A stretch of DNA of 64,000 nt from Avibacterium sp. 20-132. Lineage in GTDB: Bacteria; Pseudomonadota; Gammaproteobacteria; Enterobacterales; Pasteurellaceae. Below the pieces are notes generated by a model. That model saw nothing but the letters and a program-made list of their open reading frames with translations. It searched no databases and was not told the DNA's origin. The translations under genes and the position numbers were made by a program. Within the stretch, counting starts at the first letter, position 1; every line of letters begins with the position of its first letter. Location of the stretch: assembly GCF_023611925.1 (NCBI RefSeq), contig NZ_CP091456.1, positions 1,654,001 through 1,718,000 of the forward strand, in the 5' to 3' direction. Positions 47,611 through 53,442 of this stretch are shown here, one piece after another.

Positions 47611-47734
47611 GCAATATATTGATTTTGAAAGGGTTTTTGTATAATTCGGGTTTTTGTTTATTTTGTTTTGTTATTTTTAGTAATGTAATTATTTTCATAT
47701 GTATTGAAAAAGTAAATGCTCGTTATTTTGCGCA

Positions 47735-48050
47735 TTTATTGTAACTTGGGTGAATTATTGCGTGATAAAAATATTTTGGGATGACCTAAAATAGTTTACA
47801 GCTAGAAATATTTGATGATGAGATTAACGCAGATGAAAGTTATTTTGGTTGTACGCTTAAAAGTAAGTAAGCGCACGAAGTTGTGAGTAAATTCGCTATA
47901 ATCTGGCTTCTCAAGTAGAACGGCAAGGCTTATACTATCTTGTACTGAATATGCAATTAGCTAGCTTTATTTCTATTACGATTAAAATTCTGACATAAAG
48001 AGATACACTATTAGAGCAATTTGGAGTAAACTTTCATTCTAAGACGTATC
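47735..48050 (+). pseudogene. Remnant of an IS1016-like (IS1595 family) transposase
   Basis: Read from 47790, the frame gives NSLQLEIFDDEINADESYFG, then KSK, a stop, and a stretch with WLLK, NGKAYTILY, closely following the IS1016 transposase (PHLEMFDGEVEADESYFGG ... LLKRNGKVYTV). ADESYFG is the catalytic-core motif of the IS1595 family. At least seven in-frame stops and a missing C-terminal half show that it is long dead. Upstream, CNLGELLRDKN in another frame may be the earlier helix-turn-helix part. I could not find terminal inverted repeats. It abuts the autotransporter gene. Confidence 0.75.
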
Positions 48051-48094
48051 AATCTTCTTTTTACATCAAAAAATAATTAAAGGATATCCATATA

Positions 48095-51000
48095 ATGAAC
48101 TCACCTCGTCTTTTCTCGCTTTCACCATTGGCGATGGCGATTACGCTCGCACTTTTTCCTTACTTAGCACAAGGAAACCAAAATGATGCAGAAAACCGCC
48201 AAGACGCCGTGGCTAAATTAGCACATTTACCCGAAGCACAGGCTCAACCACATCAATGGCAAGATACAGATCATAATCATATTAATCAGGATAAACTGAC
48301 GACTTTACGCGCGATGTTAGTGGATACGGGAGTGGATCTTCATACCTTTGAAAAAGACGAAATTTACCCTGAAAGCATTGTTGCTCACGGTTTCTCTTTC
48401 TATGATAGTGTTAGTCATCACATTAGTACTCAACTTAGCCCAGATATGATAGACGATGGTCCAGAAATGCACGGAACAAAAATGGCGCGTGTATTATTAA
48501 ACACTGCTGGCGGTGGTTCAATTTATCCAGTACAAGGCTTAGTAAGAAAAAGAGGTGAGCCAGTTCCCCATTGGCGAAACCGATTATTAGCAATGGGGGT
48601 GGCGAATGAAAGAAGCATTGCACAAACAGGGCGAGCGGCTCCTGTTGTAGCCAATATTTGGGTAGAAGGCATCTCAGAATATGCACAACCTGAATATATT
48701 GAAAAACTTGCTCATATTGCAAAACAAGGTTCTTTGTTACTCTTTGCAAATGGCAATGAACCACTTGATCCTGCGATTCCTAATGAACCTTATTCCTCTG
48801 TCTCAAGAATGCTTGCCCCGAACTCTGAACAACTTGATGAACGTTTAAAAGATAACGTCATCGCCATTACAGCGATTACGAAGGGTAAGCAAAAATATCA
48901 GCCTTGTGGAAAAGCGAAAAATTTTTGTTTGGCGGCAAATGCAGATACACCAATCAACTATTTTGATCCGATTCTAAAGCAATGGATTTATGCGGATATT
49001 CCTAATGGCACTTCTAGTGCAACCGCTTATGCGAGTGGCGTTGCGCTTGCTATTGCACAAAAATACGATTGGTTTAAAGCAAAAGATATTCGTAACACTC
49101 TCTTTACCACGGCAAATGATAAAGGTGAGACCGGTATAGATGTCGTTTATGGTGTAGGTGAAATCAATAAACAAAAAGCGTTAAATGGCTATGGACGTTT
49201 TGATGCCCAAAATAATAATGTGCTTGATGTAAATGGTATCGCAGAACGCTATTATTTTGACAATGATATTGGGGGCGATGGCGGCTTCACAAAACGCGGT
49301 GATAAAGAACTTGTTCTTAATGGTAATAATCGTTTTCAGGGAAAAGGGGTAATAGAACAAGGAAAACTCACCATTAACGGAACAAATACTGCGCAATTTG
49401 AAATTAAACAAGGTGCAACACTCGCAACGGGAACAAGCCCAAATAAAATCTCTACGGGAAGCCTTTATAACAGCGGGCGTCTTGAAGTTATCAATCCTTC
49501 ACCATTATATATTGAGGGGGATTTTACCAATACGGAAACAGGTGAGATCAATACGGCAATAGGCTCAAGCATCAATGTGAGTGGGCAGGCAATTTTAAAT
49601 GGCGTAATGCGAGTCAGCCAAATTACTCAGGGCTATGTTCCACAATCGGGGCGGAGAGAAGTGCTGTTGCGAGCAAATGAATTGGTCGATAATGGCATTC
49701 GTTTACACTTAGATTCTGCATTAGTTAATATCGCGGATACCATTGCCTTTGATCAAAATAAAAAACAAATCTATGTTGGATTACAACGTAAAAATATTAG
49801 CGAGGCACTTGATGATTTAACCCATACGATCACTCCACCATCTCCGCCGACGGATACAGTTATAACAAATAAAGAAAAAACGGATACAACAGTTTCCGCT
49901 CATTCAGAAAGTGCGGTAATAAATTTAGCAGATTTACCTGAAGCAGAAAAAAACTATTTTCCGAATTGGACAGATACAGATCGTTATCCAACAACCTCAT
50001 CCTCTCATAAACCAGCTATCGCAATGTTAGTTGATACAGGAGTGGATCCTCGTACCTTCAAAGAAGGGGAACTTTATCCTGAAAGCGTTGCGGCTAAACC
50101 AAATCAAACACCGAGTTTTGAAGTACAACATTACTTTAAGCCAGATGTGAATGATCATAGCTTCCATGGTTCAAAAATGGGACGTATTTTGCTTAATACC
50201 GCAGGAATGGGTCAATTATATATCACTCAGGGAGTACGGGCTCCTAATAGTTCTTGGCGTTCAATCTTATCTGCTAGTTATGCTGCAAACCAACGTTTAC
50301 AACAACAAACTCAAAAGGCTGCTCCCGTTATTGGAAATATTTGGAAAGATTTTATAGAAATACAAAATTATCAAGAGTACGTCAATCAAGTACAAAATAT
50401 AAAAGAACAAGGTTCTTTACAGCTTTTCGCAACAGGTAACGAAAGCAGTGAATATCACAGTGAAGCCGGTACTCAACCAGGGCGTACAATCATCGCGCTT
50501 ATTGATAATAATACTGGAGATTTGCTGACCTCACTTAAAGATACAATTATTGCGGTAACAGGTGTGAAGAGCAATGGACAAAAAGTATTTCGTCCTTGTG
50601 GAAAAGCTAAAAACTTCTGTATAACATCTAATGTGGATACGCAAATTAGTTATTTTAATCCTGATAAAGGATATCGTGAAATTAGTCGTCCCGGTGGTAC
50701 TTCTAGTGCTACGGCATATGCCAGTGGAGTAGCCCTTGCAGTAAAACAAAAATATGATTGGTTTGAAGCTAAAGATATACGCAACACACTGTTTACAACA
50801 GCTATTGATAAAGGTACCCCAGGTATTGATGAAACTTGGGGTGTTGGCGTAATTAATAAATCTCAAGCATTAATGGGATATGGGCGCTTTGATTCCCAAA
50901 ATGATAACCGACTTACTGTCAATGGTATTGCAGAACGTTATTATTTTAATAATGATATTGAGGGTGATGGCGGTTTTACGAAATTAGGTGAAAAAGAACT

Positions 51001-53263
51001 CGTTTTCAATGGTAATAATAGCTTTAAGGGTGATGGGATCATTGAACAGGGTAAACTAACTCTAAACGGCTCGAATCAAGCCAATTTTATCGTAAAACAA
51101 GGAGGAACACTCGCATCTGGAACATTAGTTAAGCTTTCATCAAAAGATCAAAAAGCTCAACCGATAACATCTGGTAGTGTAAACAATTTTGGAATAATAG
51201 AATCACTTAATCAAACAGATTGGAATATCAATGGTAATTTAATTAATAACGCGACTGGCGTAATTAATAAAGCAATTGGTTCAACCATTAATGTGAGCGG
51301 TATAGCAAACCTTGGAGGCATAATGAATGTCGATCAAATTGCTCCATACTATGTGCCACAAAACGGCCGACGTGAAGTATTATTGCGTGCCAATGGGTTA
51401 GTTAATAATGGTATTCAACTTAATTTAAATCCTGCTTTAATTGATGTGGCAAACACAATTGTTTTCGATGAGAATAAAAAAGAGATTTATGTAGGATTAC
51501 AGCGTAAAAGCGTTCAGCAAGCCTTAGAAGATCAAGATACTTCAAATGGGCATTCACCAGAAACACCTGTAATTAACGATAAAGTCACGCCTCCAACGGA
51601 AGAAACAGCTTCTACTGTTGAAACAGATAATACAACTGAATCCGCATCAAATGGTCATTCAGAGGAAACACCGACAACTGAAGAAATAACCGTTCCACCA
51701 ACCACTGAAACAGCTTCTACTGTTGAAACTGACAATACAACTGAATCTGTATCAACTGAACATTCAGAGGAAGCATCAACAACCGAAGAAACAACTGTTC
51801 CAGCAACCACTGAAACAGCTTCTACTGTTGAAACGGGCAATGCAACTGAATCTGAATCAACTGAACATTCAGAGGAAACATCGACAACCGAAGAAACAAC
51901 TGTTCCAGCAACGACCGAAACAGCTTCTACTGTTGAAACGGGCAATGCAACTGAGTCCGAATCAAATGGTCATTCAGAGGAAACATCAACAACCGAAGAA
52001 ACAACTGTTCCAGCAACCACTGAAACAGCTTCTACTGTTGAAACAGATAATACAACTGAATCCGCATCAACTGGACATTCAGAGGAAACATCAACAACCG
52101 AAGAAACAACTGTTCCAGCAACCACTGAAACAGCTTCTACTGTTGAAACAGATAATACAACTGAATCCGCATCAACTGGTCATTCAGAGGAAGCGTCCTC
52201 GATAAATAAAAAGAATAAAGCGCAGAGAGCTTATTTAGGTGCAATGGAAGATGCAAGATTACTCGATCGCGTTTTAGAAAAACTCGATCAAGGCTATGCT
52301 TCACAGCAATTAAATACACAGCAAAAACAATGGGCAAACCGTTTATTCAATACAGATAGAACACATTTTACTGAATATTTATTCAGTCAAGGGATTCAAT
52401 CATTAATACATCAGCAGCAAAGCTGGGTTAACCACGAGGCCTTTCAGCGTTTAAATTGGATTGCATCATTTTCACAAAAAAATCATACCGCACTTTGGAT
52501 TAGTGGTGAAAATCGTTCTGCCTCGCCTGATGTTAGCCATATTAATACGACTGATCACTTTAATAGTGTGGCAATTAATGGTCTTCTTGTGGAAGGCAAA
52601 CACCGATTCAGTTTCAGCATTAGTGAGCAGCGGCAGAAATATGAAGAGCATTACAAAGAGGTTGAAAAATCGTTTAATGAACGTGATGTTGCATTCCGTC
52701 TAGGCTATGGATATGAATTTATACCAAACTGGACGCTCTTAACAAGTTTTAACTACGGTGTAGGAAAATTAAAATATCAACAACAATTTAATACACAGAA
52801 CACCCATTCACAAGGCAATACTCAATCTTATGCTTCAACCCTTGGCATTCATTGGTCACAACCTATTAATGCCCAATGGATATGGCATAATATCGCCAAT
52901 ATTGATTACACACATAAACAATTAACACATTTAATGTTAAATGATGATGTGAAAATTAATCGCTTAGTCACAGAGCAGACAAATATTGGTGTTATTTCAG
53001 AGCTAGAATACAAACTGAAAAACCTTACTTTATTCGGTCGCTTAGCTTTACAAAAAACCTTACATAATAAAAATCGTGGTCGCGTAAGCTATGCGACAAC
53101 CTCAGTGGATATTGAGCAGTCTTATCGTCTCTATCCTGATTGGAAACCACTATTTGGCATTGGGATGGGCTATCAATATCATAATTGGCGTTTTTCTTTA
53201 TCTGGAGATATGGCTAAAGATCATTATCATCGAGTTAATGTTTCTGTCGGTTATTCTTTTTAG
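48095..53263 (+). CDS. Autotransporter with two tandem subtilisin-like (S8) protease domains
   Basis: A 1722-residue type Va secreted protein. A signal peptide (about 1-27) is followed by two full S8 passenger units. Unit 1 has Asp77 (LVDTGVD), His126 (MHGTKMA) and Ser307 (GTSSATAYASG); unit 2 has Asp647, His691 and Ser870 in nearly the same motifs. Each unit has a conserved Cys pair (PCGKAKNFC) and ends in a beta-helix segment with ERYYFxNDIxGDGGFTK. A Thr/Glu-rich stalk of 35-residue repeats covers about 1170-1367, and the C-terminal ~270 residues form a beta-barrel ending YSF. Related to AasP, Ssa1 and NalP, which have one protease domain. AAGGATATC precedes the ATG. No obvious partner genes. 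Confidence 0.93.
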   Translation: MNSPRLFSLSPLAMAITLALFPYLAQGNQNDAENRQDAVAKLAHLPEAQAQPHQWQDTDHNHINQDKLTTLRAMLVDTGVDLHTFEKDEIYPESIVAHGFSFYDSVSHHISTQLSPDMIDDGPEMHGTKMARVLLNTAGGGSIYPVQGLVRKRGEPVPHWRNRLLAMGVANERSIAQTGRAAPVVANIWVEGISEYAQPEYIEKLAHIAKQGSLLLFANGNEPLDPAIPNEPYSSVSRMLAPNSEQLDERLKDNVIAITAITKGKQKYQPCGKAKNFCLAANADTPINYFDPILKQWIYADIPNGTSSATAYASGVALAIAQKYDWFKAKDIRNTLFTTANDKGETGIDVVYGVGEINKQKALNGYGRFDAQNNNVLDVNGIAERYYFDNDIGGDGGFTKRGDKELVLNGNNRFQGKGVIEQGKLTINGTNTAQFEIKQGATLATGTSPNKISTGSLYNSGRLEVINPSPLYIEGDFTNTETGEINTAIGSSINVSGQAILNGVMRVSQITQGYVPQSGRREVLLRANELVDNGIRLHLDSALVNIADTIAFDQNKKQIYVGLQRKNISEALDDLTHTITPPSPPTDTVITNKEKTDTTVSAHSESAVINLADLPEAEKNYFPNWTDTDRYPTTSSSHKPAIAMLVDTGVDPRTFKEGELYPESVAAKPNQTPSFEVQHYFKPDVNDHSFHGSKMGRILLNTAGMGQLYITQGVRAPNSSWRSILSASYAANQRLQQQTQKAAPVIGNIWKDFIEIQNYQEYVNQVQNIKEQGSLQLFATGNESSEYHSEAGTQPGRTIIALIDNNTGDLLTSLKDTIIAVTGVKSNGQKVFRPCGKAKNFCITSNVDTQISYFNPDKGYREISRPGGTSSATAYASGVALAVKQKYDWFEAKDIRNTLFTTAIDKGTPGIDETWGVGVINKSQALMGYGRFDSQNDNRLTVNGIAERYYFNNDIEGDGGFTKLGEKELVFNGNNSFKGDGIIEQGKLTLNGSNQANFIVKQGGTLASGTLVKLSSKDQKAQPITSGSVNNFGIIESLNQTDWNINGNLINNATGVINKAIGSTINVSGIANLGGIMNVDQIAPYYVPQNGRREVLLRANGLVNNGIQLNLNPALIDVANTIVFDENKKEIYVGLQRKSVQQALEDQDTSNGHSPETPVINDKVTPPTEETASTVETDNTTESASNGHSEETPTTEEITVPPTTETASTVETDNTTESVSTEHSEEASTTEETTVPATTETASTVETGNATESESTEHSEETSTTEETTVPATTETASTVETGNATESESNGHSEETSTTEETTVPATTETASTVETDNTTESASTGHSEETSTTEETTVPATTETASTVETDNTTESASTGHSEEASSINKKNKAQRAYLGAMEDARLLDRVLEKLDQGYASQQLNTQQKQWANRLFNTDRTHFTEYLFSQGIQSLIHQQQSWVNHEAFQRLNWIASFSQKNHTALWISGENRSASPDVSHINTTDHFNSVAINGLLVEGKHRFSFSISEQRQKYEEHYKEVEKSFNERDVAFRLGYGYEFIPNWTLLTSFNYGVGKLKYQQQFNTQNTHSQGNTQSYASTLGIHWSQPINAQWIWHNIANIDYTHKQLTHLMLNDDVKINRLVTEQTNIGVISELEYKLKNLTLFGRLALQKTLHNKNRGRVSYATTSVDIEQSYRLYPDWKPLFGIGMGYQYHNWRFSLSGDMAKDHYHRVNVSVGYSF
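51602..52196 (+). repeat. 105-bp in-frame tandem repeats in the autotransporter stalk
   Basis: Units begin at 51602, 51707, 51812, 51917, 52022 and 52127, five full and one partial, each encoding 35 residues (ETASTVETDNTTESAS plus a GHSEET... and TVPATT end). The later copies are almost identical at the DNA level, so they expanded recently; the first has more changes. Because 105 is a multiple of three, copy-number change alters stalk length and not the frame. Confidence 0.95.
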
Positions 53264-53276
53264 ATAGCATATTTGC

Positions 53277-53309
53277 ATAAAGCACGGTTTATCGTGCTTT
53301 ATACTTTTT
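53277..53309 (+). terminator. Rho-independent terminator of the autotransporter gene
   Basis: ATAAAGCACG (53277-53286) pairs with CGTGCTTTAT (53293-53302), followed by a T run, 13 bases after the stop. Confidence 0.85.
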
Positions 53310-53442
53310 TCCGTTTACTCCGCTTCTCATTATAAAACGCACTTTTTAAGAATACGTTTGCAACATAAGGATTATTGTATTCGCTATATTTTGAGTACAT
53401 TAAGTGCGGTAAGATTTTGATAAATTTTTTACTAGAAGACAA

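Follow-up and report, generated by a model that had tools for sequence, protein, structure and literature searches.

Can a single autotransporter carry two working subtilisin-like (S8) proteases, and how would such a protein arise? The question is raised by an uninterrupted open reading frame (ORF) of 1722 codons in Avibacterium sp. 20-132, located at 48095–53263 on the plus strand of the 64,000-nucleotide stretch analyzed here (the window; contig NZ_CP091456.1, positions 1,654,001 to 1,718,000). The explanation that we favor overall, with moderate confidence, is that this gene encodes an exported, two-headed type Va autotransporter and that the double was made by the joining of two genes.

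Two S8 units in one chain

The Pfam model PF00082 matches the whole protein in two stretches (E 3e-25), and also matches the single units (7.5e-14 for unit 1, U1; 1.3e-14 for unit 2, U2). For comparisons the units were bounded at approximately residues 37–566 and 607–1138. The catalytic residues D77, H126 and S307 of U1, and D647, H691 and S870 of U2, are invariant in 37-row alignments, as are the oxyanion Asn residues 221 and 782; neither triad is degenerate. Each unit also has a Cys pair with a spacing of seven (271/278 and 835/842), and a beta-rich (beta-helix) stretch follows the S8 domain in both AlphaFold models. The beta-strand repeat model TIGR02601 scores above its cut-off in U1 and in U2, and PF12951 (PATR) falls slightly below its cut-off in the whole protein. 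A preliminary description of this DNA had proposed one autotransporter with two complete S8 domains, each with its triad, Cys pair and following beta-helix, and this architecture is borne out. Of the passenger positions conserved in at least 90% of 33 chosen relatives from outside Avibacterium, U1 keeps 24 of 28 and U2 keeps 22 of 28.

The two units were modelled separately; in combined modelling, single-unit rows aligned to U1. The fold of the U1 model was checked by VIA-align. The U2 model (pLDDT 85.2, pTM 0.88) finds Ssp (8e7f) and fusolisin (8axg) as its best Foldseek matches, and both units are confidently predicted to fold as Ssp-like subtilases. Ssp of Serratia marcescens is likewise an autotransporter with an S8 and beta-helix passenger and an Asp/His/Ser triad, and its Cys288-Cys295 disulfide has the spacing of seven found in both units (PMC9977779; here and below, cited papers are quoted from excerpts). 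However, Ssp has only one S8 unit, its stretch from His to Ser is 229 residues long compared with 181 in U1 and 179 in U2, and it contains a tripeptide (VINNSW) that both units have lost (see below). Fusolisin is also an S8 autotransporter passenger. Ranked by E-value, its NCBIfam model comes first for U1 and U2 alike, with scores far below its cut-off, but it has one S8 unit in the match.

The C-terminal region aligns by hhalign (99.6%, E 4.9e-25) with 14 S8 autotransporters, several of which have PF03797. PF03797 itself does not match the C-terminal tail of the window protein, and is weak (0.0042) on that of an Avibacterium paragallinarum relative. The protein has the features of the Group 15 autotransporters: an S8 domain with Asp/His/Ser and oxyanion Asn, a following beta-helix and a C-terminal barrel. 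This group contains the subtilisin-like autotransporters NalP, SphB1 and AasP and is described as having one protease domain of approximately 400 amino acids followed by a beta-helix of approximately 200 (PMC9289746), whereas the window protein has two of each. NalP and SphB1 are further described as lipidated, in the excerpts at hand; the window protein has no Cys in residues 1–60, and thus no lipobox for lipidation of that type. Based on sequence and models, we classify the protein as a type Va (classical) subtilisin-like autotransporter with two S8 and beta-helix passenger units in series.

Distribution of the double layout

The same double occurs in three further assemblies, from Avibacterium sp. 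21-595, 21-594 and 20-129 (P0002–P0004), with 97–98% identity over residues 1–1190. It was found in none of 6 other congeneric genomes. In the organism's own genome (2,585,160 bases in one contig), the S8 model matches this gene alone, in two places.

Outside Avibacterium, no double-S8 autotransporter was identified among the relatives searched. These comprised protein sets of 7, the best 120 of 156, and 15; 140 genomes of the family, 41 of which had a match, with the best three candidates per genome scored for most; two further, partly overlapping scans of 369 and 398 genomes, with the best two candidates per genome among the matches listed; and the best 80 of 108 loci from a scan with alignment A1. 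A scan of named genomes with the window protein alone as query returned no relative. Running the S8 model on fetched proteins and loci recovered, in addition to the four Avibacterium doubles, four proteins (P0058, P0050, P0089, P0093) in which two or more S8 stretches occur together with two Ser motifs; none of the four has an autotransporter domain listed. Tandem S8 domains in one chain are therefore not novel by themselves. Several other candidates were rejected. A long frame in genome G700 holds a single S8 domain, and four loci with matches of 3.6–4.4 kb (L053, L060, L062, L085) contain no single frame with two S8 domains and were taken as neighboring genes.

A search of titles and abstract openings, with subscription papers outside its scope, found no autotransporter with two subtilase domains. 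Excerpts of two autotransporter surveys (PMC9289746, PMC3419190) mention no double-S8 layout, and the excerpt of a 2008 survey lists a Subt-Autotransporter layout and names none with two subtilisin domains (PMC2605481). The 'tandem S8' of PMC6000758, considered as a precedent, refers to neighboring genes in the part quoted. The expectation that described relatives have a single S8 domain agrees with Group 15 as excerpted, and the double-S8 autotransporter layout appears so far restricted to Avibacterium, as far as the searches made reach.

An altered tripeptide beside the active site

In subtilases the so-called CHO tripeptide (Asn123-Ser125 in savinase) lies beside the active site; the Ser125 carbonyl touches the catalytic His, and its side chain touches the carbonyl of Ser221 (PMC11593635). 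In an excerpted structure survey from the same paper the first residue is Asn (n=33) or Ser or Thr (n=14), and the third is Ser throughout, apart from two exceptions discussed below. Our 33 outside relatives, a selection from several homologue searches, have the Asn in 32 cases and the Ser in all 33. In U1 these positions are occupied by Ala186 and Ile188, and in U2 by Gly747 and Ile749. The single-unit protein of A. paragallinarum reads S-N-A, with Ser for Asn and Ala for Ser, and a decayed piece of the gene in congeneric genome G023 has Ile at the Ser position. Four Avibacterium rows lack both the Asn and the Ser in alignment A4, and U1, U2 and the A. paragallinarum single all depart from the canonical core (Asn/Ser/Thr-x-Ser at savinase 123–125). 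A truncated A. paragallinarum protein (P0008) was excluded from alignments A4 and A5 and from these counts.

A wider automatic alignment has the Ser in 174 of 177 distinct non-Avibacterium rows and Glu in the other three, where the alignment is doubtful. It places U2 and the A. paragallinarum single as A4 does, and its Avibacterium rows, when aligned as in A4, have Ile in four cases and Ala in one. Six U1 rows of the wider alignment are misplaced and put the Ser of RSIAQ (approximately residue 174) in the tripeptide column. We prefer the A4 placement of the U1 tripeptide because a direct BLASTP alignment of the units pairs VVANIW with VIGNIW, because the strands concerned (184–188 in U1, 745–748 in U2) are equivalent in the models, and because RSIAQ lies in a helix. 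By this alignment evidence, the catalytic core of both units is non-canonical despite full triads, and the tripeptide change appears to predate the split of U1 and U2. With the tripeptide replaced in both units, catalysis is uncertain, which tells against the explanation that we favor overall. The earlier suggestion of two protease activities on one stalk is not supported as it was put, since both units and the Avibacterium relatives compared are without the tripeptide Ser that every chosen outside relative has.

Divergence of the units and origin of the double

The two units are 51% identical over 581 columns (BLASTP) or 54.7% over 519 (multiple alignment), with 49% identity in the S8 part and 64% in the beta-helix. 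The longest exact DNA word that they share is at most 14 bases. Across GTSSATAYASGVAL the units differ in the third position of 8 out of 14 codons, in agreement with the original description. Nei-Gojobori estimates between the units give a nonsynonymous rate (dN) of 0.39 and a synonymous rate (dS) of approximately 2.0, near saturation, for a ratio of 0.19. Similar dS values separate the A. paragallinarum single from U1 (1.9) and from U2 (2.3), and the three lineages are therefore about equally distant. The proposal of an old duplication with both units kept by selection is thus upheld in part: the divergence is ancient and selection has been purifying. However, joining of two genes fits better than duplication in place, and the catalytic core has been altered at the tripeptide.

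Two single-unit relatives bear on how the units came together. The full-length A. paragallinarum NCTC11296 protein (1081 aa; L033:5980-9225) is 54.5% identical to U2 and 51.5% to U1 and shares the tripeptide loss, an acidic linker and a homologous barrel, but has one S8 unit and lies at another chromosomal site. In the tree it groups with U2 (98/96). The S8 peptidase of Avibacterium sp. 21-599 (P0005, 1046 aa) groups with U1 (99/96). Its U1 is 95% identical, its barrel has 3 differences in 355 positions and its repeat linker is of the same kind, but it has no U2: the sequence follows U1 to YVGLQRK and continues with a tail like that after U2 in the doubles. Its beta-helix is closer to those of P0003 (3 differing sites) and P0004 (4 sites) than to that of the window protein (10 sites). 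This pattern implies that singles and doubles exchanged DNA, or that one derived from the other.

The nonamer AAGTGCGGT, which we take to be the Haemophilus-type uptake signal, occurs 46 times in the window compared with 0.36 expected, including copies at 49909, 52487 and 53402; ACAAGCGGT has 0 copies there. U2 opens with the copy at 49909–49917, which is read as Ser-Ala-Val. This nonamer is also found, with the same reading, directly after the signal peptide in A. paragallinarum and in congeneric genomes G023 and G024; in G028 the exact nine bases are absent there. Since U1 and the U1-type protein of 21-599 have Asp-Ala-Val at the corresponding site, the signal is impossible there. The shared codons indicate that U2 starts where the mature protein of a separate gene started. 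The tree, the two singles and the placement of an uptake signal where U2 begins together make it probable that the double was formed when two diverged genes were joined in frame, and less so that it arose by duplication in place; natural transformation is the likely route.

Three observations weigh against this. The tree carries long-branch warnings, and the A. paragallinarum row is among the long ones. The structure of the 21-599 gene, U1 with a U2-type tail, would also be expected from deletion of U2 in a double. Finally, no direct scar of joining was detected; the likeness of the inter-unit linker to the post-U2 repeat is not clearly above chance, as 194/2000 and 65/2000 shuffles reach its score.

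Among the four doubles, 26 of 530 protein sites vary in U1 compared with 6 of 532 in U2 (Fisher p 0.0003) and 7 of 352 in the barrel. By inspection of branch lengths in the tree, neither unit is visibly accelerated. Diversifying pressure on U1, which would sit at the tip, or a recent spread of U2 could account for these counts.

Alternative explanations

An ancient tandem duplication within one gene in an ancestor of the genus, after which A. paragallinarum lost U1 and 21-599 lost U2, is possible but rather doubtful. The units are contiguous and co-linear, the 21-599 single is exactly U1 plus a post-U2-like tail, and the tree alone would be compatible with such a history. However, it requires separate losses with in-frame ends, the six other congeneric genomes contain no double, and the uptake signal is found at the start of U2 and not of U1. 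That the double is an artefact of assembly or annotation has almost no probability, and no observation favors it. The genome is a single contig, three other assemblies contain the double, the copies are only 51–55% identical, their longest identical DNA words do not exceed 14 bases and their synonymous sites are almost saturated with changes; for these reasons we do not regard it as an assembly artefact. Joining of two genes therefore remains the origin that we prefer.

The alternatives on function concern what the heads do. PCSK9 is not known to cleave any protein but itself, and the enzyme named thiazoline oxidase/subtilisin-like protease is presumably a PatG-type macrocyclase. These two are the exceptions to the tripeptide Ser in the excerpted structure survey (PMC11593635), and the almost universal conservation of Asn and Ser in the chosen outside relatives against the absence of both in four Avibacterium rows points in the same direction, namely that one or both units are not general proteases but process themselves once or serve to bind; other subtilase folds without the tripeptide may behave likewise. 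We consider this a tentative minority reading, as U1, U2 and the A. paragallinarum single retain the complete triad and the oxyanion Asn, and the tree shows no obvious acceleration of either unit. It is unlikely that the two units have one specificity and are kept solely for dose or reach. They do have their fold, motif set and tripeptide change in common, but their S8 domains are more diverged than their beta-helices, and the unequal numbers of variable sites indicate that they do not evolve alike. In the explanation that we favor, selection maintains both units as functional modules whose surfaces differ. Because their catalytic neighborhood is unlike that of standard subtilases, a narrow activity, such as self-processing or cleavage of a few partners, seems more likely than a general one. 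Ssp is reported to cleave itself and so release its passenger (PMC9977779), and by analogy self-release is plausible for the window protein. The earlier pairing of self-release with a host substrate is speculative, and any host substrate, specificity or general proteolysis proposed for this protein is what we infer.

Gene layout and locus

Features of the gene and its surroundings are collected in Table 1. The repeat linker is 229 aa long in this gene compared with 370–614 aa in the three other doubles, and contains 5.6 copies of a 105-bp unit (51602–52192). A 160-aa ORF (51723–52205, plus strand) runs in a second frame of these repeats and is probably a by-product of them.

Table 1. Features of the double-S8 autotransporter gene and flanking DNA (window coordinates)
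Feature	Position	Strand	Basis
Whole gene, two S8 and beta-helix units	48095..53263	+	ORF; Pfam S8 in two stretches
Putative signal peptide, residues 1-26	48095..48172	+	boundary judged by eye from sequence
U1 S8 domain, residues 37-370; D77, H126, N221, S307; Cys 271/278	48203..49204	+	
U1 tripeptide Ala186-Asn187-Ile188, replacing usual Asn-x-Ser	48650..48658	+	alignments
U1 beta-helix, residues 371-566, with autotransporter beta-strand repeat	49205..49792	+	
Inter-unit linker, residues 567-606	49793..49912	+	
Uptake signal AAGTGCGGT at U2 start, codons Ser-Ala-Val	49909..49917	+	
U2 S8 domain, residues 607-933; D647, H691, N782, S870; Cys 835/842	49913..50893	+	
U2 tripeptide Gly747-Asn748-Ile749, replacing usual Asn-x-Ser	50333..50341	+	alignments
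U2 beta-helix, residues 934-1138	50894..51508	+	AlphaFold model, NCBIfam
Thr/Glu/Ser-rich linker with in-frame 105-bp (35-aa) tandem repeats	51509..52195	+	
C-terminal translocator barrel, residues 1368-1722 and stop, ends ...VGYSF	52196..53263	+	hhalign
Segment without counterpart at maeA-potD site of congener G028 (81 bases there)	47702..53400	.	
Decayed IS1595-type transposase remnant, just upstream of gene	47802..47961	+	limits by eye

The gene lies between maeA and potD. The right edge of the segment that has no counterpart in G028 abuts the uptake signal at 53402–53410. A longer relative of the transposase remnant (PF12762, E 1.9e-32) adjoins potD in A. paragallinarum, where the autotransporter gene itself is found between nlpC- and ttcA-like genes. 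The ttcA-nlpC interval contains no autotransporter match in six other congeneric genomes. In G023 and G028 the gene is present as fragments, in both cases next to one permease-like gene (identified by eye), and G025 and G027 have no match to the gene at E 0.1. PotD is 92–97% identical across the genus, the lowest value coming from a piece at a contig end, and TtcA is 95–97% identical. On this comparison of loci, the gene occupies differing sites across the genus, or is decayed or absent.

Remnants of the gene were observed in three congeneric genomes (L165:3172-4640, L005:779-2594 and L166:3840-4556), two of which adjoin the same permease-like gene. The A. paragallinarum protein P0008 (904 aa, from a cluster of 21 sequences) starts within the S8 domain and is without the part containing Asp and His; some strains of this species may carry a decayed copy.

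Proposed mechanism and implications

For type Va autotransporters, export, display on a stalk and the order of folding are known biology. The window protein would be exported by Sec, after which the barrel would insert. As the passenger threads through, the second beta-helix and S8 domain would fold first and the first S8 domain would end at the tip, with the 35-aa repeats setting the reach of the heads. In the joining step, which we propose because U2 begins at the mature start of a separate gene, on its uptake signal, recombination of taken-up DNA would have placed a U2-type gene downstream of a U1-type passenger in one reading frame. A more speculative extension, to which we give little weight, is that a branch specific to this genus left the canonical core by losing the tripeptide, its heads being self-limited proteases, ligases or binders and not general proteases, and that natural transformation, acting through the coding uptake signal directly after the signal peptide, shuffles heads between genes and so yields two-headed forms.

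As far as the searches reach, this is the only type of two-headed S8 autotransporter, and it would offer a natural test of vectorial folding with enzyme domains in series. Several divergent heads have lost the tripeptide while keeping their triads, which provides a direct way to probe the role of the tripeptide. Finally, a coding uptake signal at the boundary of a head suggests a recombination route for surface enzymes in the naturally transformable Pasteurellaceae.
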